Positions 4,954-17,493 of a stretch of 30,259 nucleotides of DNA are shown here, piece by piece. Under the pieces are notes generated by a model, which was not told the DNA's origin, made no database searches, and saw nothing but the letters and a program-made list of their open reading frames with translations. The translations under genes and the position numbers were made by a program. This DNA is from a virus: positions 1 through 30,259 of IMG/VR virus record IMGVR_UViG_3300021185_001412; one strand, given 5' to 3'. The stretch's first letter is position 1. Each line of letters starts with the position of its first letter.

Positions 4954-5904
4954 TTAAGTCTTGTTAAACTGGCCAGTAGGAACTGACTGGTGAATTTTCT
5001 CTACAGTTCCACTATCATTGACATATATCTCATCAACCTTTTCAACACTTCCATTATTGTTTCTGAATACACCTTTAACTTTTGCAATCGGGCCAACTGT
5101 TCTAGTTGTTGTATATGGTTGTTGGAACGTATACGATTGTTGGTATGAGTATGGCGCCTGATAAGGTTGTCTTGTAGTACTAGGTTGTCTAGCATTAGCA
5201 ATATATGGAATCGTATATGTAAACGGATGACGGTAAATAGAAGGTTGTCTATTTTGATATATTACTGGTGTCCTTGCAGGAGTTGGAGTCGTATATGTCG
5301 CTGGATGTTGATATGTAAACGGTGTTCTACCTTGTGTAGCATATGTACTAGGTGACCTATTCTGATAAGTGAATGGACTTTGTGCATTTGCTTCATATGT
5401 AGCAGGTTGTTGTGCATTCGCAGTATATGGATAGGGTTGTTGATGGTCATAGTTTACTATAGATTGTCCATTCGCAATATACGGATAAGGTCTTTGTGCA
5501 GATGCAATAGGTCTTGTTGCTGGAGTTTGTCCAGCAAATGGATATGATACCGTTCCTTGATTTATAAATGGGTAGGGAGTTTGTGCATTCGCAGTATATG
5601 GGTAAGGCCTTTGTGCAGTTGCAATAGGTCTTGTTGCTGGAGTTTGCATATTAGCAGGATATGGAACCTGAGCAATAGCAGGGCCTCTAGCAGAGTATTG
5701 TGCATTTGCAATAAAAGGTACTTGATATTGTGCATTATTTTGTGCATTTGCAATAATGGGTACTTGATATTGTGCATTATTTTGTACATTTACCTGTCTT
5801 ATTGCAGGAGCCTGATGAGAGTAAAATCTTGTTGCAGTATACTGAACATTGACTGGAGTTCTTGCAGGAGTTATGTAAGGTTGTTGTGTTTGTCCTATTG
5901 CCAT
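4954..5904 (-). CDS. Pro/Tyr/Gln repeat fibre-like protein (316 residues)
   Basis: Residues about 8-270 are low-complexity repeats built of short units such as PYIANARQ, PFTYQ, PATYE and QRPYPY; the last 45 residues are an ordinary domain with KVKGVFRNNNG and VDEIYVNDSGTVEKI, a phrase like one common in phage structural proteins. Prolines fall at odd positions from 9 to 93, at even positions from 100 to 132 and at odd positions again from 139 to 263; aromatics (except F27) take the opposite parity. No signal peptide or membrane segment. The start (TAATG overlap, Shine-Dalgarno GGAG) is well supported. It is a tandem paralogue of the upstream 460-residue protein. Probably a rigid or adhesive fibre at the virion surface. 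Composition recalls Tyr/Gln-rich repeat proteins in other marine myoviruses, from memory only. Confidence 0.75.
   Translation of the reverse strand: MAIGQTQQPYITPARTPVNVQYTATRFYSHQAPAIRQVNVQNNAQYQVPIIANAQNNAQYQVPFIANAQYSARGPAIAQVPYPANMQTPATRPIATAQRPYPYTANAQTPYPFINQGTVSYPFAGQTPATRPIASAQRPYPYIANGQSIVNYDHQQPYPYTANAQQPATYEANAQSPFTYQNRSPSTYATQGRTPFTYQHPATYTTPTPARTPVIYQNRQPSIYRHPFTYTIPYIANARQPSTTRQPYQAPYSYQQSYTFQQPYTTTRTVGPIAKVKGVFRNNNGSVEKVDEIYVNDSGTVEKIHQSVPTGQFNKT
5464..5643. repeat. Duplicated 63-base segments, 117 bases apart
   Basis: Two near-identical segments (5464-5526 and 5581-5643) encode TPATRPIA-S/T-AQRPYPY in the 316-residue protein. Their offset is 117 bases, or 39 codons, an odd number of residues, which explains the parity shift of the prolines between them. 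Confidence 0.8.
5699..5782. repeat. 42-base tandem repeat, two copies, in the 316-residue gene
   Basis: Copies at 5699-5740 and 5741-5782 differ at only a few bases and encode the 14-residue unit (QYQVP-I/F-IANAQNNA type). A third, diverged start follows at 5783. The same period occurs in the neighbouring 460-residue gene. Confidence 0.85.
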
Positions 5905-7286
5905 TAGTACATCTCCACTTTTTGTGTTCCATACGCACTAGCAACATAATAACCTGCACCAAATACACTCACTGACCAATACCAAGTATGGTCAGCTGGA
6001 GAACCAGTAGAAGTTCCTTGTGAAGTACTCAATGTAGAGGTCTGTTCATTTGGTCGTCCAATATTGGTAGTACATTTCATATATTGAATGTCAACTCCTA
6101 CATTACCTGTTGGGCCTCCACCACTCTCATCTGTCAAATCATAGTAAGTACCACTTGGTGTTCCCTTATACACATGTCCAATATAGACTGTACCAGTTGG
6201 ATTAGTGCCTGGTGTAAAGATACTGTAATGTACACCTGAATTTAATGCCCATGGTATATTTGGATTTTGAGGCCAACCATTATTTCCACTATCTGATGGA
6301 TTACCATTAGCACCCAATGGTCTACTCCCAACTGGTGCAAAAGGAGAACCGTTTCCTTTAAATCCGTTTAGAGATGAATTGTACCCATAGCCAGGATTTA
6401 CAGTATCAACTCTAGAGAAAAACGGCCCTAATACAATTGGGTCGGGATAGGTATATTCAACAGGTCTTCTTGCACCAACACTAGAAGGTTGTTGTGCAGT
6501 ACTTGGGTGTTGATAAGGTTGTGCTACAATAACAGGTGTATTATACGGCTGTGAAACAGTCGTTGGATGCTGATACGGTGCAGGTTGTTGATGCTGATAT
6601 GTCGTTGGATGCTGATACGGTGCAGGTTGTTGATGTTGATATGTCGTTGGATGTCTATATGTAACCTGATAATTTCCAGTAACCTGATGGGTATATGTTG
6701 AAGGAACCCTATATGATTGTTGGAATGAGTAAGGTTCACTCCCCTGTCTTTGATATGTAGAAGGTTGACGACCAGTATCATTGAATTCATAAGGTTGTTG
6801 ACCTTGTCCAGTATATGGGTTCTGATAACTTTGTTGAAAACTATATGGTTCTTGACCCTGTCTTGCATATGTAAATGGCTGTCTCGTTGTTGCAATAACA
6901 GGAGAAGTTCCCTGTCTCTGATATGTGAAAGGGTTTCTTGTATTTGCCTGATATATGGAAGGTTGTCTAGCATTCGCAATATATGGAGATTGTGCATTCG
7001 CAATATAAGGATAAGGTTGTTGTGCAGACGCTTGGTAAGTATAGTTTCTTACTGTTTGAACTATAGATGGTACTTGTCTGTTTGCATTATAAGGTGTCTG
7101 AGCGTTACTAGGTTGTCTAGCATCTGCAGGTTGTCTGTTCTGATAGGTAAACGGTGTTTGTACATTGACAGGTCTTCTAGCAATATACTGCGCCTGTGCA
7201 ATAGGTGTAGTACCTTGTGCAACCCCTTGTCCTTGGTAAGGTTGTTGGAACGAAGTTCCTATATTTACATAAATTTCATCAGACAT
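5904..7286 (-). CDS. Pro/Tyr/Gln repeat fibre-like protein with C-terminal domain (460 residues)
   Basis: Residues 1-38 are a short head starting MSDEIYVN, the same E-I-Y-V-N phrase found near the end of the 316-residue protein. Residues 39-283 are repeats (PFTYQ, EPYSFQQSY, ARQPS, PTTYQHQQPAPYQH). All 34 prolines in this range are at odd positions and the Tyr/Phe residues at even ones. Residues about 284-460 are a separate Gly-rich domain with several Trp and two paired motifs (NPGYGYNSS, HTWYWSVSVFGAG), plausibly a globular tip. No signal peptide. It starts one base after the stop of the 608-residue fibre gene and overlaps the next gene by one base, so it is within the fibre operon. Likely a fibre whose shaft is the repeat and whose tip is the C-terminal domain. 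The fold and receptor are unknown. Confidence 0.75.
   Translation of the reverse strand: MSDEIYVNIGTSFQQPYQGQGVAQGTTPIAQAQYIARRPVNVQTPFTYQNRQPADARQPSNAQTPYNANRQVPSIVQTVRNYTYQASAQQPYPYIANAQSPYIANARQPSIYQANTRNPFTYQRQGTSPVIATTRQPFTYARQGQEPYSFQQSYQNPYTGQGQQPYEFNDTGRQPSTYQRQGSEPYSFQQSYRVPSTYTHQVTGNYQVTYRHPTTYQHQQPAPYQHPTTYQHQQPAPYQHPTTVSQPYNTPVIVAQPYQHPSTAQQPSSVGARRPVEYTYPDPIVLGPFFSRVDTVNPGYGYNSSLNGFKGNGSPFAPVGSRPLGANGNPSDSGNNGWPQNPNIPWALNSGVHYSIFTPGTNPTGTVYIGHVYKGTPSGTYYDLTDESGGGPTGNVGVDIQYMKCTTNIGRPNEQTSTLSTSQGTSTGSPADHTWYWSVSVFGAGYYVASAYGTQKVEMY
6559..6653. repeat. 42-base tandem repeat (2.3 copies) in the 460-residue gene
   Basis: Units begin at 6559, 6601 and 6643 with the same GTCGTTGGATG; the first two copies are nearly identical and encode HPTTYQHQQPAPYQ. 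Such exact repeats change copy number easily by slippage or recombination. Confidence 0.9.
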
Positions 7287-9114: not shown

Positions 9115-9319
9115 TTATCTTTTCCACTAGTTGATTAAGCATGTCTTTTATATCTCTCATGTCATCCTTAATATTATTTATTTCATCTACCTGTTTTTTA
9201 TAGTTATCTTTTCTAAGTTTATGTAATCTCCAAGCACTAACATCAGTACTTACTATTGCAGAAGATTCGGAATCCCTTAATAGAGATGTATGTCCTTCTA
9301 CTTTATAGTACTCTGACAT
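9107..9319 (-). CDS. Small coiled-coil structural protein (70 residues)
   Basis: I chose the ATG at 9319 (MSEYYKVEGHTSLLRD) because it overlaps the stop of the 2223-residue gene as TAATG; a longer reading would add six residues inside that gene. Residues 1-12 with YYKVEGH-x-x-L-x-R-D are a signature I recall from short proteins in T4-like cyanophages. Residues 30-70 are charged with hydrophobic residues at heptad spacing (I-x-x-I-K-x-x-M-x-x-I-K-x-x-L-x-x-L), a coiled coil. It overlaps the 608-residue fibre gene by 8 bases, which implies coupled translation. It could act as an oligomerisation or connector protein between the large DUF4815 protein and the fibre; this is inference. Confidence 0.7.
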   Translation of the reverse strand: MSEYYKVEGHTSLLRDSESSAIVSTDVSAWRLHKLRKDNYKKQVDEINNIKDDMRDIKDMLNQLVEKING

Positions 9320-12300
9320 TATGCAAGTCCTAAACATCTTAATGCAGATACCATAGGAACCACTGAACTATTAGAACCTTTACCTACAATCTTAATCGCA
9401 AATGCACTGAACTCGGGTAGGTCGTCTATAGTCCATTCATACTCTTTAAAGTTTCTTGCATCTGCCTCTGTTGTTGTATCGGGTGTTCCATAGTCATTAA
9501 AGTACTCCCAATTTAAATCGTCAAAAGGTGTAGATTCATCATTTTTAAGAATCTTATATAACACTTGAACATTTGTTGTTGGTGGTCTAAACACATCTGC
9601 AATAACTTTAAGTGTTGATGCAGGAGTTTTTAGATTTACCTTTCTAGTGCAATATACCATTGCGTTGTTATCTCCATCAGGTTCTGTTGATGCAGTATAA
9701 ACTGTTCCTGTAGGTACATCTGCATTGGAATCTATGTTGTTGATTCTATTTCCTATACCTATCGCACCTATTGTACCCACATCTATAACTGGAGATACAT
9801 TTGAGTTAACTGATTGTAACTGAAGTGTGCATGTGAATGATTTCTCTGATGACATCTCATTAGTTTCATTAATAGGAGATGCAATAACACTAGGAGAATC
9901 AAAGAACACATTATCATTTAGTGTTACAAATTTACTTGTATTGTTCTTAGTATATGCAGTACCATTACTATATCCTTCAGGTGAATTCATAGGTGTTGTT
10001 AATACACTTGCACTAATTCTAGTTAAAGCATAGTTTAAACTTGGAATGAGTGTGTGAATTGCATCAAAGTAATAGTTTCTTGTTGATGTTGCATTTTCTC
10101 CACCACCGACTGTTGAGTCATTTGATGAGTATGTTGTTTTAACATCAAAACTAGATAGGTCGGGTAATACTGTAAAGGAGTCTATTCCTATGTTTGCAAT
10201 AGAAGTGAATGAAGAATTCAATGAAGATACTGGAATACCACCTAATGTTTCTCCAGTTGTATCAACATCTATTGTCAAGTCTGCAGTTCCACCGTCAAAG
10301 TTTACTGCACTCAATGTATCAGTTGTTGCATATCCATAGCCTGGGTCGGTAATGAATACTGTAGTTATTGCATTATCAACAACTGTAAATTCTGCAGTTG
10401 CACCTGCACCTGTACCGCCAGTTAAGGATACATTAAATGTTCCATTGTTAGGTGTCCCACTTACTGAAGGTGTTGCAACGGTTAATACGCAATCTTCTTT
10501 ATCACCTCTAATACCTGAAAGTGTTACATTTGAGTTTGTCGTATACATACCATGCATGTAGTTATAAACTTTAACATACTGTTGTCCACTGAATGTTTCT
10601 AATGCATTACTTTGTAATTTAGAAGTGGTCAAAGGAGAATTCTCAAATTTTAACACTGGTGTTTTTGAAGTGTCAAATTGAGCAGTCTTCATGTGGAATT
10701 TCAAGTCATCTTCTTGTGTTGCAGTCCATGTGGATGCATTTTGTGATAAGAATAATGAACCAGCATACGGTTGACCTGCAATTGTCTGATTTGTTGCAAG
10801 GTCTTTCTCACCCATTCTTGAAATAAATGTTGTAAATTCATTTGAATTGGAGTATACTACGAATGAATATTCATGGTCTTCTTCTAAGAATACTGGAGAT
10901 TCAAATGTAAATGTTGTTGCAACTGAACCATCAGAAGATGTATTGACATTCGCTGGATTTATTGTTACAGTAGAGAATGGTATAACATTCTGGCCTGGAT
11001 ATCCATTTATCATATTTCTAATTTCAACAGAAACTGGTAGTGTTGAGTCTTTCTTCTCAAAGAATAAGTCTATAGATGTTACAAACATACCACCTGACCT
11101 ATCAACCAAGAATGATTGTGCAAGTGGGTCTCCCCAACCTCTGTCTAGTGGGAAATCGAAGAATCTTCTATCCTCAACCACTCTAAAGTCCATATTCCTA
11201 GTAGTAGGTATTAACATTGGAGGTGCAATAAATGGTGGTGGCTCAGGTAGTGGGGGTAATTGTGGTGGTGCAATTACTCTTGAAAATGGAGGTGGTACTT
11301 CAATTGGTACAGGGTCTTGTATAATATCGGGTATTACTGGTAACTCTGCAACAGGTGGTATTGGTGGTGCAGTCTCATCAAATACTTGTGCATTTATTCT
11401 CTCACCAGCCCTAGTTATTTGTCTAGAACCAGTACTCCTTTCTGTAATTACTCTACCATTTCTTGTAGATGTAATCTCTGTTTGGTTAGATTGTAGTAGT
11501 CCTTGTGCCTGATATATTCCACTTGCCTGTGAGCCTGGGTTATTCAAGTCATAAAAACTAGACGTTAATCTAAGTTCTCTTTGTCCTGTAGGGAAACTTT
11601 GTTTACTTGTGTTTGGTAACTCAAAGAAACCTCTTAGTCTACCATTACCATCTGACTTAAGTCCTGAAGTAACTGTTGTTCCACCGTCTTGTGAATACGT
11701 TGCATTTAAAGGTCTTACATATTCATCTACTCTGATTCCATCAAAGAAGAAGTAATGGTTTGAATTTGGTTTTAAATTAGTTGCATCTAACTCAATAGTT
11801 CTAGACCTCATGAAAGGTACTATTGTTATACTTACAACTCTATCGTTTCTTGTTTCTACGAAGTCTTCAACAACACTTGTTGTAACACCTGTTCTTGTTT
11901 GAGTCTCAACTGTTTCTGTAATTTCTCTTGATACTTGTAAACCAGCAACCCATTCTCCACCTTGTGCTGGGTCTCCACTCCAAGAACCATTAGAAGTGGC
12001 CTGCACTTCTGTTGATACTGTATTAGGTTCACCAACCCATGTTGTTTGCCATGAGTTCCAAACCGTTCCTAGTGAGTTTGTATTTTCAGAAAGAACTGCA
12101 TCATAGTTTCCTTCTCTGTTCATTCTTACTTCGGGTAATTGTTCTGTATCATTCCATATATCAGTTTCGGGTGATAACTTAACTGTACCAAAGAAATTGA
12201 ATACATGGTATGGGTTAACATTAATAGTTCTTGATGCCTTATCTTGATTTACATATGTTTGAGAACTATAAGGTAGAGTAATTAAATCTCCAGTCTTCTG

Positions 12301-15300
12301 ATAATTAGAAGATATAGCAGTATTAAAGTCTATGTCAAAGAATTGTGAATAAGATTGTGGTCTCATTGCACCAAGTTTTGTATCTACACTTATCTGATAA
12401 TCGGGATGATTCACATCTCCAACTCTATGTCCTCTGAAGTTGTCTACTAAGAACCCTGACTTAAATCTATCGAATCCATCAGCATCTAAAATTTGTTTAG
12501 ACTGTGTGTCTCTTTCTAGTAGAGACAATGCAGTGATTCTTTCTAGGTTTGTAACACGATTATTAATCTTACCAATATCCTTCATGGTAAATCTACGGTG
12601 GTCTTGTGTTCTAACTCTTACGTTTTTTAAACTTTTAGTATATGCAGGTATCTGTACTTCGAATAATTCTATTGCATCATCAACAGCCTTAGGTTTAGTC
12701 GGTGATAGTGAAGGAATACCAGCAGATGTTTGGAATGAACCCGACTTATGTAAGAATACTTTGTCTATTCTTCCAACGTAGAATGCAATGTCCCCAACAA
12801 CACTTGAACCTGTTACTGGTGTGTCGTTTGAACTTGCACCTGTACTTGAAATTCCAGTTCTTGATTGACTGAAATCTCTACCAGTGTCATATCCAAACGG
12901 TGCATAAACAGAACCCTCTGTAGAATTTGATAAGTTTACTGGGTTAGTTGGGTCTTGAGTGTTTGTTGTTCCAAATGTTGATGTACCAATAATTTGTCCT
13001 ACGACTGGTCTAAAGTCAACACAATCTGAAAGTTCAAATGTTCCATCAGGTTCTAAACCACCTAAGTCTACTCTACTTGGTGAGAACACTGGAATTTCGT
13101 CATATGGTACTGATGCATATGATTCAACGTCAAAGAAATCTCCACCATCTGAAGTGAAGTAGTCAAATACAACTAGTATTTTTCCTGACGGGGTTGGTTC
13201 TCCAACCTTTCTTGTAATTTTTGCAAGGTCATAATATCCATCTCTCTGACCATTATCAAAGAAGAATCTAGACTTGATATCGGGTGAACCTTGTGATACA
13301 CTAGTAATTGTTGCGACTGCAAGTGAAGTCTGACCGACAATACTTTCACCTTCTATAAATGTTCCTGATACCATTCTATAATATGAAGTTGCAAGTGAGC
13401 CACTATATGTAATCATAACAGCACGAGCATCTGAAGTTTGACCTATGATTGTTTCGTATACTTGGAATGTTCCACTGTCTACTGAAAAATATGATGAAGG
13501 TGGTAGAGGTGTTGTTCCTCCTACTCCTTCATATATTGCATGAATTTTATGAACGTCTGCAACACCTAAAGTAATTTCTTTATCATCATATGCAGTACCA
13601 TAGAAACCACCAGCACTTCTTGCACTTTCAACACCAAGTAATCTTGATTTTCTTAATGTCTTATTTCTAGAATCAGGATTAGTTCTATTTACTGTAAATG
13701 TAATTTTAAGTTTTGCACCATTATTATTTGGTATACTTTTAGTAAGAGTTTGTCCTGTCCCACCATCTGTTGAAGGGTCTCCTGAAAAATCTTCTATATT
13801 AAGTAGGTCACCTAAATCATATGCATTTGCATCTGAAGATTCATCAACAACTGCAATCGTAAAGTTATCTGTATTGACTGCACCGAATGTTGCATTTGAA
13901 CCAGTACTAATAGTGAAAGAACCACCTGATACATCAACAACTTGTTGTCTTCTTACCTGAATAGAATCACATGAATGTGTTTTTACCCAGTCTCTTGGCC
14001 ATGCAAAGATAGATGCAGTTTGGTCTTGGTCATATAGTTGTGTTCGTCTTCTTGTTACATTACCAGTGTATGAATTTCCAGCATTTCCTGTAAGTGTAAG
14101 AGTCGTGTCATCTGTAACACTTGCAACTACTAACTCAAATGATGCAACATCATTAGCAGGGTTTACTATTATGTCACCTTCTTTTAATTCAGTTGTAAAT
14201 GAAGTTGCAAAACCAGTAACAGTTGTAGAACCATCTGTATATGTAACTGTACCGATTAGAGTTCTAGATGCATCTACTACAGTGTTTGCAGTAAATGTAG
14301 TTGAACCTGAATCTTGTGGGTCTTGTGAAACTCCTCTAACACGGTCAATGTTATAGTTTCGAACTGCAGTAACTGTTGTTGTTCCACTAGTTGTACCGTT
14401 AGTTGTGATTGCATCATTAACTACGAATGTACCTACTACGTCATGAACAAATAACTGACCAGTTGTAGTATATGAAACAATACCAGTTGCACCTGAAGTA
14501 CCACCAATTACTTGGTCTCCTTCCGTAAAGGTTCCAGCCAAAGTTCCACTTATTTTTGTTAACATCTTGATATCAAATAGATACAAGTTCCATTGTGATG
14601 AAGCGTTATACTCTTGTGAAGATGCAGAACCACTTTGTAAATCTATGTTTCTTAATCTTGCAAAACCAATCTTTCCACTTGAAGGTTCTGTTCCACTACT
14701 TGATATTGTAGTATCCCAAAGAGTAACTTCTTTAAATGGTGTGACTGTTGCATCTCCAGTTTCATTACCAAATTCGGGTAATGAATGGACATTAGTAATT
14801 CTTAATTTATTACCAATCCTTACTGGGGTGTTTGTGTTGTTCAAAGATACTGTAGACCTTGCCTTACTGAATGATATTGGTGTTGTACCAATCTTATCGA
14901 TTTCATATCCTTTAACGTATCCTTTACCAGGCGATACCTGCATGATGAACTTATCGTCATCACCACCATTAGCAGAAGTATAATAACCTCTGTTTGTAGT
15001 GTCGTCCAAATGTTCTCTTAAACTATGTGTGAATTGTCTAACAACAAAGTCTCCATTAGCATCAAATGTTCTTCGTGCCATAGAGTTTTCAATCTCATTG
15101 TATATTGGTCTTGTTATCTTAAGTTCTATTATACCCTGATTAACTCTGACAAGTTCTATAAAGTCTACATCATCTGTAGTATCAAGTGTGTACTTAGATA
15201 GTACAAAATCTAACTTAAGTCTATCAGCACCAGCTGCATTTTCATTTGTTGTACCTGAAGAGTTATCTAAAAGACTTGTATCATCTGCAGAGGATACTAG

Positions 15301-15990
15301 GTCTTCTGCAATTGTTAGACCAACTCTGTATGTTGGTTTACCTGAATACTTTTCAAGTATGAGTTCTTGTTTGTCAACTTTACAAAAGAATCCTCTTGCA
15401 AAAACTATACCTTCTGATATACTTGCAATAGAAGAACGACCAACTGGACTATCTGTTTTTGGTTTTACTGTGAACTCATTATTATTAGCACTGTTTACAG
15501 TAACTGTTCCATCTTCACCCAATGTACACTCTTGTAGTTCTTCACCTGAATAGAATACTACAGAGTTACTTGCATCAGTTCCTTGTGAATGAAATTTAAC
15601 AAATAATGTTATAGGGTCATCTGTAGTTTCTGCAGCTGAAGAGAAAACTTTACCGACAACACCTGATGATTTACCTCTTAGGAATTTATCATGAAAAGTT
15701 TTTCTATATTCTTCTGTATTTGCATCTCCACCAGCGTTCGGGTTTGCAGAGTTTACTTTTACATAGAATACTTCTAAATCTATATCTGATTCTGCACCAG
15801 TAACTAAAGACCCCTCCTCAAACATATGAGAACCAAATCTTTCAATTTGATTTTGTAATATGGATTGGGTTTGAGTTATTTCTCTAGACTGTAGTGGACG
15901 ACCTGCTCTGAACAGAACTTTATTGAATTTCTTATCTTCCGAAAAGTCATCATAATACGGTGCTATATTTAAATCAGTTTTTTCTGGCAT
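9319..15990 (-). CDS. Giant DUF4815 structural protein (2223 residues)
   Basis: The N-terminus has the DUF4815 signature (YYDDF-x-E-D-K-x-F-N-K-V-L-F, G-R-P-L-Q-S-R-E, Q-T-Q-S-I-L-Q-N-Q-I-E-R-F-G). Residues about 480-520 and 860-930 contain GTF-x-E-G-E-x-I-x-G-Q-T-S-type repeats shared with the 1170-residue protein. A Pro-rich hinge lies at about 1537-1600. After it comes a segment with DPLAQSFLVDRSGG, VTSIDLFFEKKD and PVSVEIRNMINGYPG, a domain seen in marine T4-like virion proteins. A GYGY motif recalling those of gp8 lies further on. No transmembrane segment. The Shine-Dalgarno is AAGGA. It is by far the largest gene here. In T4 this position holds gp9-gp12, so it probably forms the baseplate periphery that carries the fibres. 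DUF4815 itself is functionally undefined. Confidence 0.85.
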   Translation of the reverse strand: MPEKTDLNIAPYYDDFSEDKKFNKVLFRAGRPLQSREITQTQSILQNQIERFGSHMFEEGSLVTGAESDIDLEVFYVKVNSANPNAGGDANTEEYRKTFHDKFLRGKSSGVVGKVFSSAAETTDDPITLFVKFHSQGTDASNSVVFYSGEELQECTLGEDGTVTVNSANNNEFTVKPKTDSPVGRSSIASISEGIVFARGFFCKVDKQELILEKYSGKPTYRVGLTIAEDLVSSADDTSLLDNSSGTTNENAAGADRLKLDFVLSKYTLDTTDDVDFIELVRVNQGIIELKITRPIYNEIENSMARRTFDANGDFVVRQFTHSLREHLDDTTNRGYYTSANGGDDDKFIMQVSPGKGYVKGYEIDKIGTTPISFSKARSTVSLNNTNTPVRIGNKLRITNVHSLPEFGNETGDATVTPFKEVTLWDTTISSSGTEPSSGKIGFARLRNIDLQSGSASSQEYNASSQWNLYLFDIKMLTKISGTLAGTFTEGDQVIGGTSGATGIVSYTTTGQLFVHDVVGTFVVNDAITTNGTTSGTTTVTAVRNYNIDRVRGVSQDPQDSGSTTFTANTVVDASRTLIGTVTYTDGSTTVTGFATSFTTELKEGDIIVNPANDVASFELVVASVTDDTTLTLTGNAGNSYTGNVTRRRTQLYDQDQTASIFAWPRDWVKTHSCDSIQVRRQQVVDVSGGSFTISTGSNATFGAVNTDNFTIAVVDESSDANAYDLGDLLNIEDFSGDPSTDGGTGQTLTKSIPNNNGAKLKITFTVNRTNPDSRNKTLRKSRLLGVESARSAGGFYGTAYDDKEITLGVADVHKIHAIYEGVGGTTPLPPSSYFSVDSGTFQVYETIIGQTSDARAVMITYSGSLATSYYRMVSGTFIEGESIVGQTSLAVATITSVSQGSPDIKSRFFFDNGQRDGYYDLAKITRKVGEPTPSGKILVVFDYFTSDGGDFFDVESYASVPYDEIPVFSPSRVDLGGLEPDGTFELSDCVDFRPVVGQIIGTSTFGTTNTQDPTNPVNLSNSTEGSVYAPFGYDTGRDFSQSRTGISSTGASSNDTPVTGSSVVGDIAFYVGRIDKVFLHKSGSFQTSAGIPSLSPTKPKAVDDAIELFEVQIPAYTKSLKNVRVRTQDHRRFTMKDIGKINNRVTNLERITALSLLERDTQSKQILDADGFDRFKSGFLVDNFRGHRVGDVNHPDYQISVDTKLGAMRPQSYSQFFDIDFNTAISSNYQKTGDLITLPYSSQTYVNQDKASRTINVNPYHVFNFFGTVKLSPETDIWNDTEQLPEVRMNREGNYDAVLSENTNSLGTVWNSWQTTWVGEPNTVSTEVQATSNGSWSGDPAQGGEWVAGLQVSREITETVETQTRTGVTTSVVEDFVETRNDRVVSITIVPFMRSRTIELDATNLKPNSNHYFFFDGIRVDEYVRPLNATYSQDGGTTVTSGLKSDGNGRLRGFFELPNTSKQSFPTGQRELRLTSSFYDLNNPGSQASGIYQAQGLLQSNQTEITSTRNGRVITERSTGSRQITRAGERINAQVFDETAPPIPPVAELPVIPDIIQDPVPIEVPPPFSRVIAPPQLPPLPEPPPFIAPPMLIPTTRNMDFRVVEDRRFFDFPLDRGWGDPLAQSFLVDRSGGMFVTSIDLFFEKKDSTLPVSVEIRNMINGYPGQNVIPFSTVTINPANVNTSSDGSVATTFTFESPVFLEEDHEYSFVVYSNSNEFTTFISRMGEKDLATNQTIAGQPYAGSLFLSQNASTWTATQEDDLKFHMKTAQFDTSKTPVLKFENSPLTTSKLQSNALETFSGQQYVKVYNYMHGMYTTNSNVTLSGIRGDKEDCVLTVATPSVSGTPNNGTFNVSLTGGTGAGATAEFTVVDNAITTVFITDPGYGYATTDTLSAVNFDGGTADLTIDVDTTGETLGGIPVSSLNSSFTSIANIGIDSFTVLPDLSSFDVKTTYSSNDSTVGGGENATSTRNYYFDAIHTLIPSLNYALTRISASVLTTPMNSPEGYSNGTAYTKNNTSKFVTLNDNVFFDSPSVIASPINETNEMSSEKSFTCTLQLQSVNSNVSPVIDVGTIGAIGIGNRINNIDSNADVPTGTVYTASTEPDGDNNAMVYCTRKVNLKTPASTLKVIADVFRPPTTNVQVLYKILKNDESTPFDDLNWEYFNDYGTPDTTTEADARNFKEYEWTIDDLPEFSAFAIKIVGKGSNSSVVPMVSALRCLGLA

Positions 15991-16029: not shown

Positions 16030-17493
16030 TTACATTTCTATAATTAATTTAATATCTTCGATTTGGTCTGCAGCCCTAGTTACAGCACCCCTGTTTTCAA
16101 CATACAGGATGTTACCTGTAAATCTTTCTACTTCAGGGAAATTAGCATCTAGTGAATCTGCATTACCGATTGTTGTACCACCTTTGTAAACAGTATCATC
16201 TTGTGCAAAGTTTACATATCCACCTTCACTATTTACAATAGGTTGATGTGATACCACTGAACCATTAATTGATATGATTCTTGACACTGCCACTCCAGCA
16301 CCATCTGATGATGCATTACGAATAATATCATCTACTGATAGTCCTGAAACACTTGATAATGTCATCTTATTATATGCACCAAGTGTTGTTGCAGTTGCAA
16401 CTGTTGTTGTTCCTGCAGTGAATGGGTCTTGTAGTAACCCTATTCTTCTGAAATCGTTATCTGTTGGGAAGTCACCCGAACCTTCGTTAAACTCAAATCT
16501 TGAGTTTACAATTATATAGTTTCCACCTAGTTCTTCAACTGGGTCTGCACCATGTCCGTTCATAGGTGATATAATTGGTGTTAATACTGCACTTGAACCA
16601 CTTCCGATTCCTGATATACCTGCAACATCAATAGATGCACGTTTATAACCTGAACCATATGCAGATGTAGTAACTGAAACAGATGTGACACCACCGCCAG
16701 AACCAACAGTTACTGAACAAGTTGCACTTGAACCGTCACCGTCTATAGCAACATTAGTGTATGTTCCAGGCGTATAACCTGAACCAGCATTATCTACTCT
16801 TACATGGTAGATTGCACCTGAAGTTGCAGAGTTTTCTACATCCCATAGTGAAGAGGAGTCGTTTGTTGCAGTTGAACCCAACTGACCATTTGTTCCTGTA
16901 CCTGCAACAGCAGTTTTTGCACCTAATGATTTAACTGGTAAAAAGTCTGAAGTCACATACTTAATTGTATCAGCAGCAGATACTGTATACATGTACTTCC
17001 AAATATATCCTGCAGCTGCACCAGTGTCCGAGGTATACACTAAGGCTGTTGCACTTGTTCCAGTTGGTTTTACAGTTGATTCAACCGTAACACCTGAACT
17101 ATTTCTTCCAGTTCTTATACACTTATAGACATTGTAGTCATCAGTGATGACAAAAAACTTAGAATCAAATAGATTATTTGCAGATGTGCTTGATGAAGTG
17201 TTTGAAGAACTTATATCATGAGAATATTCGTCATATTTAGTTCCTGTTGTCCAGTCGTATCTTTGTATAGCATGTGATACATCAGAAGATGAAACTTTCT
17301 TCATAGAAAGCATATCTGAAAATGAATCCATCTCCTCACTTGTTCCATTTACTGGAACTGGTGGAGAAGTGTCGTCTGTCCATGGGAATGAACGACCTAT
17401 AAAGATATAAGTTGATGAGGCACTTTCACCGAAGTCCTCTTTAAATTGTTTCGCATTATGTGTACGAAACTTTTCTGTAATTATTGCTGCCAT
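16030..17493 (-). CDS. 8: Baseplate wedge protein gp8 (487 residues)
   Basis: Matches T4 gp8 along its length: residues 5-12 TEKFRTHN (T4 VTSKFRTEK), FIGRSFPWTDD (T4 FGRSEPWSSN), IQRYDWTTGTKYDEY (T4 IPRRDWGDTRYPDPY), NVYKCIRTG (T4 LVYRCL), TVKPTG...GYIWKYMYTV (T4 TIEPGDGYVWEYLFEI), and the C-terminus YVENRGAVTRAADQIEDIKL (T4 YMENRPPIIMAMDQTEEINI). T4 gp8 has 334 residues; here about 150 more, mainly at residues 215-290, with GSGYTPGTY, GGGVTSVSV and YGSGYKR repeats. The product is a wedge subunit holding the baseplate. Its own late promoter and TGAGGAGATA Shine-Dalgarno precede the ATG. Confidence 0.93.
   Translation of the reverse strand: MAAIITEKFRTHNAKQFKEDFGESASSTYIFIGRSFPWTDDTSPPVPVNGTSEEMDSFSDMLSMKKVSSSDVSHAIQRYDWTTGTKYDEYSHDISSSNTSSSTSANNLFDSKFFVITDDYNVYKCIRTGRNSSGVTVESTVKPTGTSATALVYTSDTGAAAGYIWKYMYTVSAADTIKYVTSDFLPVKSLGAKTAVAGTGTNGQLGSTATNDSSSLWDVENSATSGAIYHVRVDNAGSGYTPGTYTNVAIDGDGSSATCSVTVGSGGGVTSVSVTTSAYGSGYKRASIDVAGISGIGSGSSAVLTPIISPMNGHGADPVEELGGNYIIVNSRFEFNEGSGDFPTDNDFRRIGLLQDPFTAGTTTVATATTLGAYNKMTLSSVSGLSVDDIIRNASSDGAGVAVSRIISINGSVVSHQPIVNSEGGYVNFAQDDTVYKGGTTIGNADSLDANFPEVERFTGNILYVENRGAVTRAADQIEDIKLIIEM

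Follow-up and report, generated by a model that had tools for sequence, protein, structure and literature searches.

We show that P0001 and P0003, two adjacent proteins encoded in a viral DNA of 30,259 nucleotides (IMG/VR record IMGVR_UViG_3300021185_001412, analysed over this whole length and here called the window), carry long domains in which the residues follow a two-letter code. Pro and a set of further residues occupy one of two alternating phases, Tyr, Phe and a second set the other. The register is real and seems to be maintained by selection. It is not absolute, since rare one-residue slips occur, one of them in P0001 itself. Fixed-length repeats are the usual mark by which long protein fibres are recognised. 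Here the conserved quantity is parity alone, held through changes in length and through substitutions. We lean towards the reading, with somewhat more confidence than doubt, that P0001 and P0003 belong to the shaft of a tail fibre or tail adhesin in a T4-like phage and that this shaft rests on a two-residue beta register. The coordinates of the features are collected in Table 1.

Table 1. Features of the window that bear on the register proteins.
Feature	Positions	Strand	Description
P0001, register protein type A, 460 aa	5904..7286	minus	N-cap, two-residue-register domain and C-terminal tip-like domain
P0001 strict register domain, residues 39-283	6438..7172	minus	Pro 34/34 odd, Tyr/Phe 34/34 even
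P0001 N-terminal 38 residues, cap MSDEIY...FQQPYQGQ	7173..7286	minus	conserved in an alignment of 25 type A proteins; phase slips by one residue at residue 29
P0001 C-terminal tip-like domain, residues 284-460	5907..6437	minus	46% identity to the type C tip in the record carrying a 100% identical A
P0003, register protein type B, 316 aa	4954..5904	minus	same register; slips at residues 94, 133, 271
P0003 conserved C-terminal cap, residues 273-316	4957..5088	minus	weak match to phrog_13729 (E 0.0037)
LtfC-like tail-fibre attachment/assembly protein, 110 aa	4602..4934	minus	phrog_1084 2.4e-28, phrog_3304 1.2e-23; Pfam LtfC 25.0 bits, under the 27-bit cut-off
P0002, upstream structural protein, 608 aa	7288..9114	minus	phrog_697 structural protein, E 3.6e-7
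Very large DUF4815 protein	9319..15990	minus	stands where HTVC008M has the gene annotated VrlC
Baseplate wedge gp8 homologue	16030..17493	minus	36.6% identity, full length, to gp8 of Pelagibacter phage HTVC008M

The initial annotation of the window had placed all 34 prolines of P0001 at odd positions. By position count this is correct for residues 39-283, where the claimed even positions of Tyr and Phe (34 of 34) and the Pro spacings of 2, 4, 6, 8, 10 and 18, never odd, are found as described. It does not extend to the whole protein: P0001 has 51 Pro, of which Pro16 and Pro28 are even and the 15 beyond residue 283 are of mixed parity, so the parity rule belongs to one domain. If 34 Pro were placed at random in residues 39-283, the probability that they share one parity would be 8e-12, for boundaries picked after inspection. 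A two-sided alternation, with Pro and Gln on one side and aromatics on the other, had been suggested as well. The alternation is seen, and for many residue types beyond Pro and the aromatics, but Gln is merely biased in this domain (30 odd, 14 even). P0001 is not a fresh array of copies, as had been recognised, because among its 33 Pro-to-Pro units 29 peptides and 31 DNA sequences are distinct, and all four Pro codons are in use across the whole protein. At the slip at residue 29 the unit has 11 residues, compared with 10 in relatives such as L003, whose Pro16 and Pro28 are in phase with their remaining Pro.

The start codon of P0003 shares one base with the stop codon of P0001. Within residues 8-272 of P0003, 30 of 38 Pro are odd by position count, and seven of the other eight form one block flanked by seven-residue units (93 to 100 and 132 to 139), the first of which shifts the phase and the second restores it. 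The motif P-I-A-x-A-Q is present at the P0001 slip and at the first two P0003 slips.

The parity observation is correct and wider than first claimed. Scans of viral contigs yielded 77 loci, in which a filter recognised 73 distinct register proteins (121 minus identical sequences), P0001 and P0003 included. In their automatically bounded domains 2771 Pro-Pro spacings are even and 175 odd, the odd count being inflated because the boundary overruns into the C-terminal tails of some proteins (e.g. L007); 1000 residue shuffles give 46% even spacings. A second set, obtained from a type D scan (best 80 of 229 relatives) and two loci from bacterial MAGs, adds 83 distinct proteins, in which 3738 spacings are even and 54 odd; although new as sequences, these include many close relatives of the first 73, and contig ends truncate some of them. 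The controls were other ORFs of the first loci having at least 20 Pro spacings, 53 of them once three family members missed by the filter (in L076, L038 and L065) are removed from 56; their highest even fraction is 0.62. The parity test on relatives proposed at the outset, in which odd spacings as frequent as even ones would have spoken against the rule, leaves the rule standing in both sets. Register domains extend to about 550 residues per chain. The commonest unit of the family has 8 residues (1007 of 2,946 units) and lengths are mostly 2-10. A phase model counts 72 slips in 16,113 residues over 51 proteins, domain overruns counted in, and places one slip in P0001 and three in P0003.

When phase is assigned relative to the flanking Pro in the 73 proteins, most residue types take sides. 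The opposite phase holds Tyr (26 in the Pro phase, 2442 out of it), Phe (32/774), Gly (81/711), Val (59/472), His (6/228), Lys (0/69) and Ala (284/1782). Residues of the Pro phase are Gln (2177/815), Arg (1112/434), Ile (810/135) and Asp (122/42), while Thr (1293/754), Asn (967/597) and Ser (456/846) are weakly biased. We trained a two-phase model solely on 26 proteins of types C and D, members of a second pair of register genes described below; it assigns +97 bits to residues 16-283 of P0001, a type A protein, compared with -78 for the best of 2000 shuffles. Once Pro is made uninformative, the score is +64 bits and the best of 1000 shuffles reaches -53. Seven other proteins of the window score -18 to -51 bits in their best 150-residue stretch. 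Phase log-odds of types A/B and C/D correlate at 0.84 (Pro, Cys, Trp and Met excluded).

Insertions, deletions and substitutions between relatives bear on whether the register is kept by selection or is left over from copying. Indels were counted with well-matched flanks in protein pairs at least 60% identical, a limit that also applies to the second-set substitutions; first-set substitutions come from pairs at least 55% identical. Since sequences of the first set were kept in the second-set counts, the two sets overlap in part and are not independent; events were deduplicated by local peptide alone and pairs share ancestry, so that Fisher values serve as guides. In the first set, indels in the register domain are 16 even and 2 odd versus 50 and 94 in other ORFs. 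The second set gives 158 even and 1 odd in the domain versus 24 and 44 in other ORFs of the same loci, and single-residue indels account for 0 of 159 events in the domain versus 34 of 68 in the other ORFs. Outside the domain, register proteins themselves show 0 even and 3 odd indels (first set) and 1 and 5 (second set). The odd indels counted as domain, two in the first set and one in the second, sit by sequence in tip or tail regions; the odd indel of P0001 near residue 29 is a true one-residue change that the identity cut excluded from the test. Substitutions that involve Pro number 93 of 598 in the Pro phase versus 2 of 773 in the opposite phase in the first set, and 53 of 931 versus 0 of 1374 in the second.

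Under neutral copying, the register would go back to an ancestral row of units of even length that duplicated and recombined in phase, with no constraint from the protein. Recombination of in-phase repeats can give even changes only, many domain indels are of 8, 10, 12, 18 or 20 residues, and some units recur often. Copying alone is nevertheless insufficient, because indels of the domain are even and never of one residue, unlike those of other ORFs, and because Pro gain and loss is nearly confined to the Pro phase, although the opposite phase has more changes in total and is rich in Ala, Ser, Thr and Gln. Nor is the diversity of units in its favour, given the mostly distinct units of P0001 and the 402, 289 and 197 distinct units of 8, 6 and 10 residues, respectively, in the 73 proteins. 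The substitution counts contradict neutral copying, which is largely refuted, and we regard it as very improbable.

Synteny and the adjacent LtfC-like gene support placing the register genes in a T4-like tail-fibre block, with baseplate genes on one side and neck genes on the other, in agreement with the myovirus setting first suggested. The attribute "marine", given at the same time, has its support in the nearest cultured relatives, Pelagibacter phages and cyanophages. Gene order in the window is that annotated in Pelagibacter phage HTVC008M; gp6, gp8 and the DUF4815 gene lie upstream of the register genes, and further baseplate homologues are also encoded. For pelagimyophages, an excerpt of PMC7029224 describes the stretch from VrlC to gp14 as the host-recognition and fibre region. 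An LtfC-like gene begins no more than 60 bp downstream in each of the 30 distinct type A/B loci long enough to show it, and a P0002-like gene lies upstream in 31 of 31, counts that omit loci whose register members escaped the family filter. Pelagibacter phages HTVC008M and Mosig share the order gp8, VrlC, small protein and further genes; no register protein is recognised among their ORFs of at least 120 aa in two 41 kb stretches. The most even ORF there (10 even, 3 odd) is a 167-aa antisense ORF.

Further along in the same phages lies a second pair of register genes, types C and D, with a connector gene (phrog_211) downstream of it in locus L094. Nine of 15 catalogued records carry A, B, C and D, four carry a fused A-B plus C and D, and two, G003 and G014 (31 kb), the first site only, so that three or four register genes are present in 13 of 15. 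By text pattern, a B-like cap terminates 12 of 32 complete type A proteins, and the D cap 2 of 56 type C proteins. These fusions suggest that each pair, A-B and C-D, may work as one unit. Among bacterial and archaeal genomes (one per species), 54 candidate stretches include two relatives, both of them phage loci by their neighbours. A photosystem gene, which would hint at a cyanobacterial host, is found in none of nine records (eight viral, one MAG); this says little on the host.

A globular-looking domain closes the split type A proteins and some of type C. Seven genomes have both, and five of these are close relatives of the phage in the window; in all seven, the closest C-tip of each A-tip is that of its own genome. 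Identities within genomes are 96, 95, 92, 90 and 87%, followed by 46% for the record that is identical to the window and 36% for G007 (there with the last 160 residues taken as type C tip, the usual boundary motif being absent); between genomes they range from 22 to 83%, so that the 36% is barely above background and the 46% moderately so. As the A and C loci are kilobases apart, this likeness suggests that the tip is exchanged or jointly constrained between A and C, and that it may contact a single receptor or partner. Tip likeness is not family-wide: the remaining catalogued C genes end in a Hint-like domain or a short tail. The Hint (self-cleaving) type makes up 12 of 56 type C proteins by text pattern; of three searched against Pfam, L063 (Vint 32.5, Hint 31.4 bits) and L071 (Vint 27.5 bits) pass and L033 falls below the cut-off.

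In an extended strand, alternate residues, with their backbone NH groups, face opposite sides, and Pro has no backbone NH. We propose that the long middle domain would be an extended beta chain whose residues alternate strictly between two environments, one lined by Pro, Gln, Arg, Asn, Thr and Ile, the other by Tyr, Phe, Ala, Gly, Val, His and Lys. Positions of the Pro phase would be those whose NH is not hydrogen-bonded, on a solvent or edge side. Residues of the opposite phase would hydrogen-bond to a partner chain and pack their aromatic rings against it, probably within an oligomeric fibre. A chain whose Pro all share one phase could form hydrogen bonds freely only via the other, which would fit an edge-on or two-stranded assembly. 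Unit length, 2 to 18 residues in P0001, would be free in even steps only, because an odd change would turn the remaining chain over. The resulting oligomeric beta shaft would be attached via the N-cap and the LtfC-like protein and would carry the tip. The counts above establish the register, its persistence through substitutions and indels, the two residue sets and the genomic context; beta conformation, oligomer, fibre shaft and receptor binding by the tip are what we infer from these patterns, together with a putative adhesive function. AlphaFold2 monomer models have mean pLDDT values of 37.6 for P0001 (alignment of 25) and 36.7 for a type D protein (alignment of 12), and in the P0001 model strands occur solely beyond residue 300, outside the register domain; models of such low confidence neither support nor exclude a beta conformation or an oligomer.

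Low-complexity composition and the very low confidence of both models would also suit a flexible, disordered adhesive or linker rich in Pro, Gln and Tyr, sticky through Tyr and Arg and of no fixed structure. It is not evident why such a chain would hold Lys, Tyr, Gly and Pro in phase along hundreds of positions or keep odd indels out, and we consider this reading unlikely. Alternatively, the extended chain might be donated along another virion protein by strand augmentation, as a tape or lasso on the tail and not as a self-assembling shaft. One-sided hydrogen bonding would produce the same Pro rule, the LtfC-like gene adjoins in 30 of 30 loci, and there is a precedent: an excerpt of PMC10713586 on phage DT57C describes LtfC as the fibre-attachment ring and the N-terminal part of LtfA as donating strands to the LtfC sheets and forming a lasso, with LtfA employing an alpha-helical bundle. 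The register proteins resemble this module of T5-like phages in that a gene for a small LtfC-like protein, whose Pfam score is below the cut-off, adjoins the fibre genes; they differ in their T4-like baseplate context. P0001 has no PHROG match linking it to LtfA, and the domains reach about 550 residues per chain. We know of no donated strand of that length, and donation, too, has a low probability in our judgement. A partner-bound or even a disordered chain could yield part of the same statistics.

Known fibres share some features with the register proteins and differ from them in others. The triple-stranded beta-helix of phage T4 gp5 is, in an excerpt of PMC4576200, described by a VxGxxxxx repeat. 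Both are phage fibrous proteins, 8 residues is the commonest unit here, and beta alternation is proposed here too. The unit of the register proteins is not a constant 8 residues and varies in even steps (2-18 in P0001, mostly 2-10 in the family), its conserved position is Pro, and no PDB sequence match is found. Collagen-like fibres have a Gly-X-Y repeat. They share with the register proteins a Pro-rich repetitive rod and, nearby, 2OG-Fe(II) oxygenases, but a collagen-like fold was rejected: the period is two, residues 16-283 of P0001 (268 aa) contain 11 Gly and none of the Gly-every-third pattern, and Gly in the family lies mostly opposite Pro.

Searches with P0001 and P0003 return no match in Pfam or PDB, and a type D profile none in PDB. 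P0001 has no match in PHROG either; P0003 matches weakly, via its cap, a PHROG family of unknown function. By tblastn against 50,697 cultured-phage records neither protein has a match, a result weakened for the register domain by the low-complexity filter, and the P0003 cap has none among cultured phages. The first 177 residues of a type C protein hit two Mycobacterium phage records at E 0.1, judged to be chance. In the open PubMed Central literature, no title describing an even-parity Pro rule was found. This is a phage fibre-like family with a rule not found in the literature searched, the repetitive fibre as a kind being already known. The rule also singles out uncultivated phages whose host-contact apparatus is without annotated relatives in the libraries covered here. 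Should the beta reading be true, both faces of the fibre can be read straight from the sequence, and the family shows how a natural fibre may alter its length yet keep its fold.

Downstream genes hint at modification. Directly after D, a glycosyltransferase-like gene is present in 13 of 13 records with D placed (it is absent from HTVC008M and has a partial relative elsewhere in Mosig), and in each of the 12 records that extend far enough, 2OG-Fe(II) oxygenases, of the prolyl hydroxylase superfamily, are encoded 2.5-2.7 kb beyond D on the downstream side. Because these genes follow D, Pro hydroxylation and glycosylation are possible, as in plant extensins or collagen. The oxygenase link may be mere synteny, since HTVC008M, which is without register proteins, likewise has an oxygenase after its fibre block. 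We put forward only tentatively, as the less probable outcome, that the family represents a new class of fibrous beta fold, with a two-letter code, lengths in even steps, several fibres per phage and a dedicated modification cassette.

A second-order period is superimposed on the register. Compared with shuffles of unit order, Pro positions are in excess at lags 10, 18, 20, 28 and 36 in both groups and depleted at lags 16, 22 and 24, with spectral peaks at 9.0-9.5 residues. This period may stem from copying, and the main argument does not lean on it. After clustering at 60%, spans of 18 and 20 residues also lie under the shuffles (ratios 0.78 and 0.82), versus 0.50 and 0.58 for 22 and 24. Spans of 18 or 20 residues arise by differing partitions, such as 8+10, 6+6+8 and 2+8+8.

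Proline positions in the register domains, where prolines are spaced in even steps, were analysed in 51 proteins of types A-D and are also ordered near 9.0-9.5 and 18-20 residues, beyond what shuffles of unit order give; possibly this longer order is a product of copying. The motif P-I-A-x-A-Q is found where the phase slips by one residue, at one site in the type A protein P0001 and at two in the type B protein P0003, and is perhaps a beta-bulge signature.

Within single genomes, the C-terminal tips encoded by the separate A and C fibre genes are 87-96% identical (locus pairs L003/L129, L006/L169, L008/L146, L009/L147 and L012/L164); between genomes they are mostly far diverged. This is a sign of exchange between the A and C loci. 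By pattern, 12 of 56 type C proteins carry an intein-like (Hint) domain at their C-terminus, preceded by a Gly-rich linker, and self-cleavage of these fibres is possible.

Immediately after the type D gene, all 13 records carry a gene for a protein of about 520 aa, which matches phrog_28018 (PHROG label: function unknown). Its C-terminal half is glycosyltransferase-like (GT8, E 9e-4, under the cut-off), and some phage relatives are annotated as sugar transferases. In 12/12 records with room, a 2OG-Fe(II) oxygenase gene follows type D at a distance of 2.5-2.7 kb, as a tandem pair in nine. These oxygenases are possible prolyl hydroxylases of the register fibres; alternatively, their position may be mere synteny, since Pelagibacter phage HTVC008M has such an oxygenase too.

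Coordinates of register-protein features and genes near type D
Feature	Location	Strand	Remark
Slip site, P0001	residues 28-34 (window 5904-7286)	minus	P-I-A-x-A-Q
Slip sites, P0003	residues 93-99, 132-138 (window 4954-5904)	minus	P-I-A-x-A-Q
Type C with Hint end	L063:5073-6368; L071:2547-4367; L033:6579-7778; others		by pattern
Glycosyltransferase-like gene	L094:7313-8878	minus	equivalents in G002, G004-G013, G015
2OG-Fe(II) oxygenase genes	L094:5984-6703; L094:4428-5132	minus	downstream of type D

Two contigs bearing the register-protein phage locus (L109, L110) are filed in Sphingobacteriales and Flavobacteriales MAGs. This assignment weakly hints at these orders as hosts; alternatively, the placement may be a binning error.
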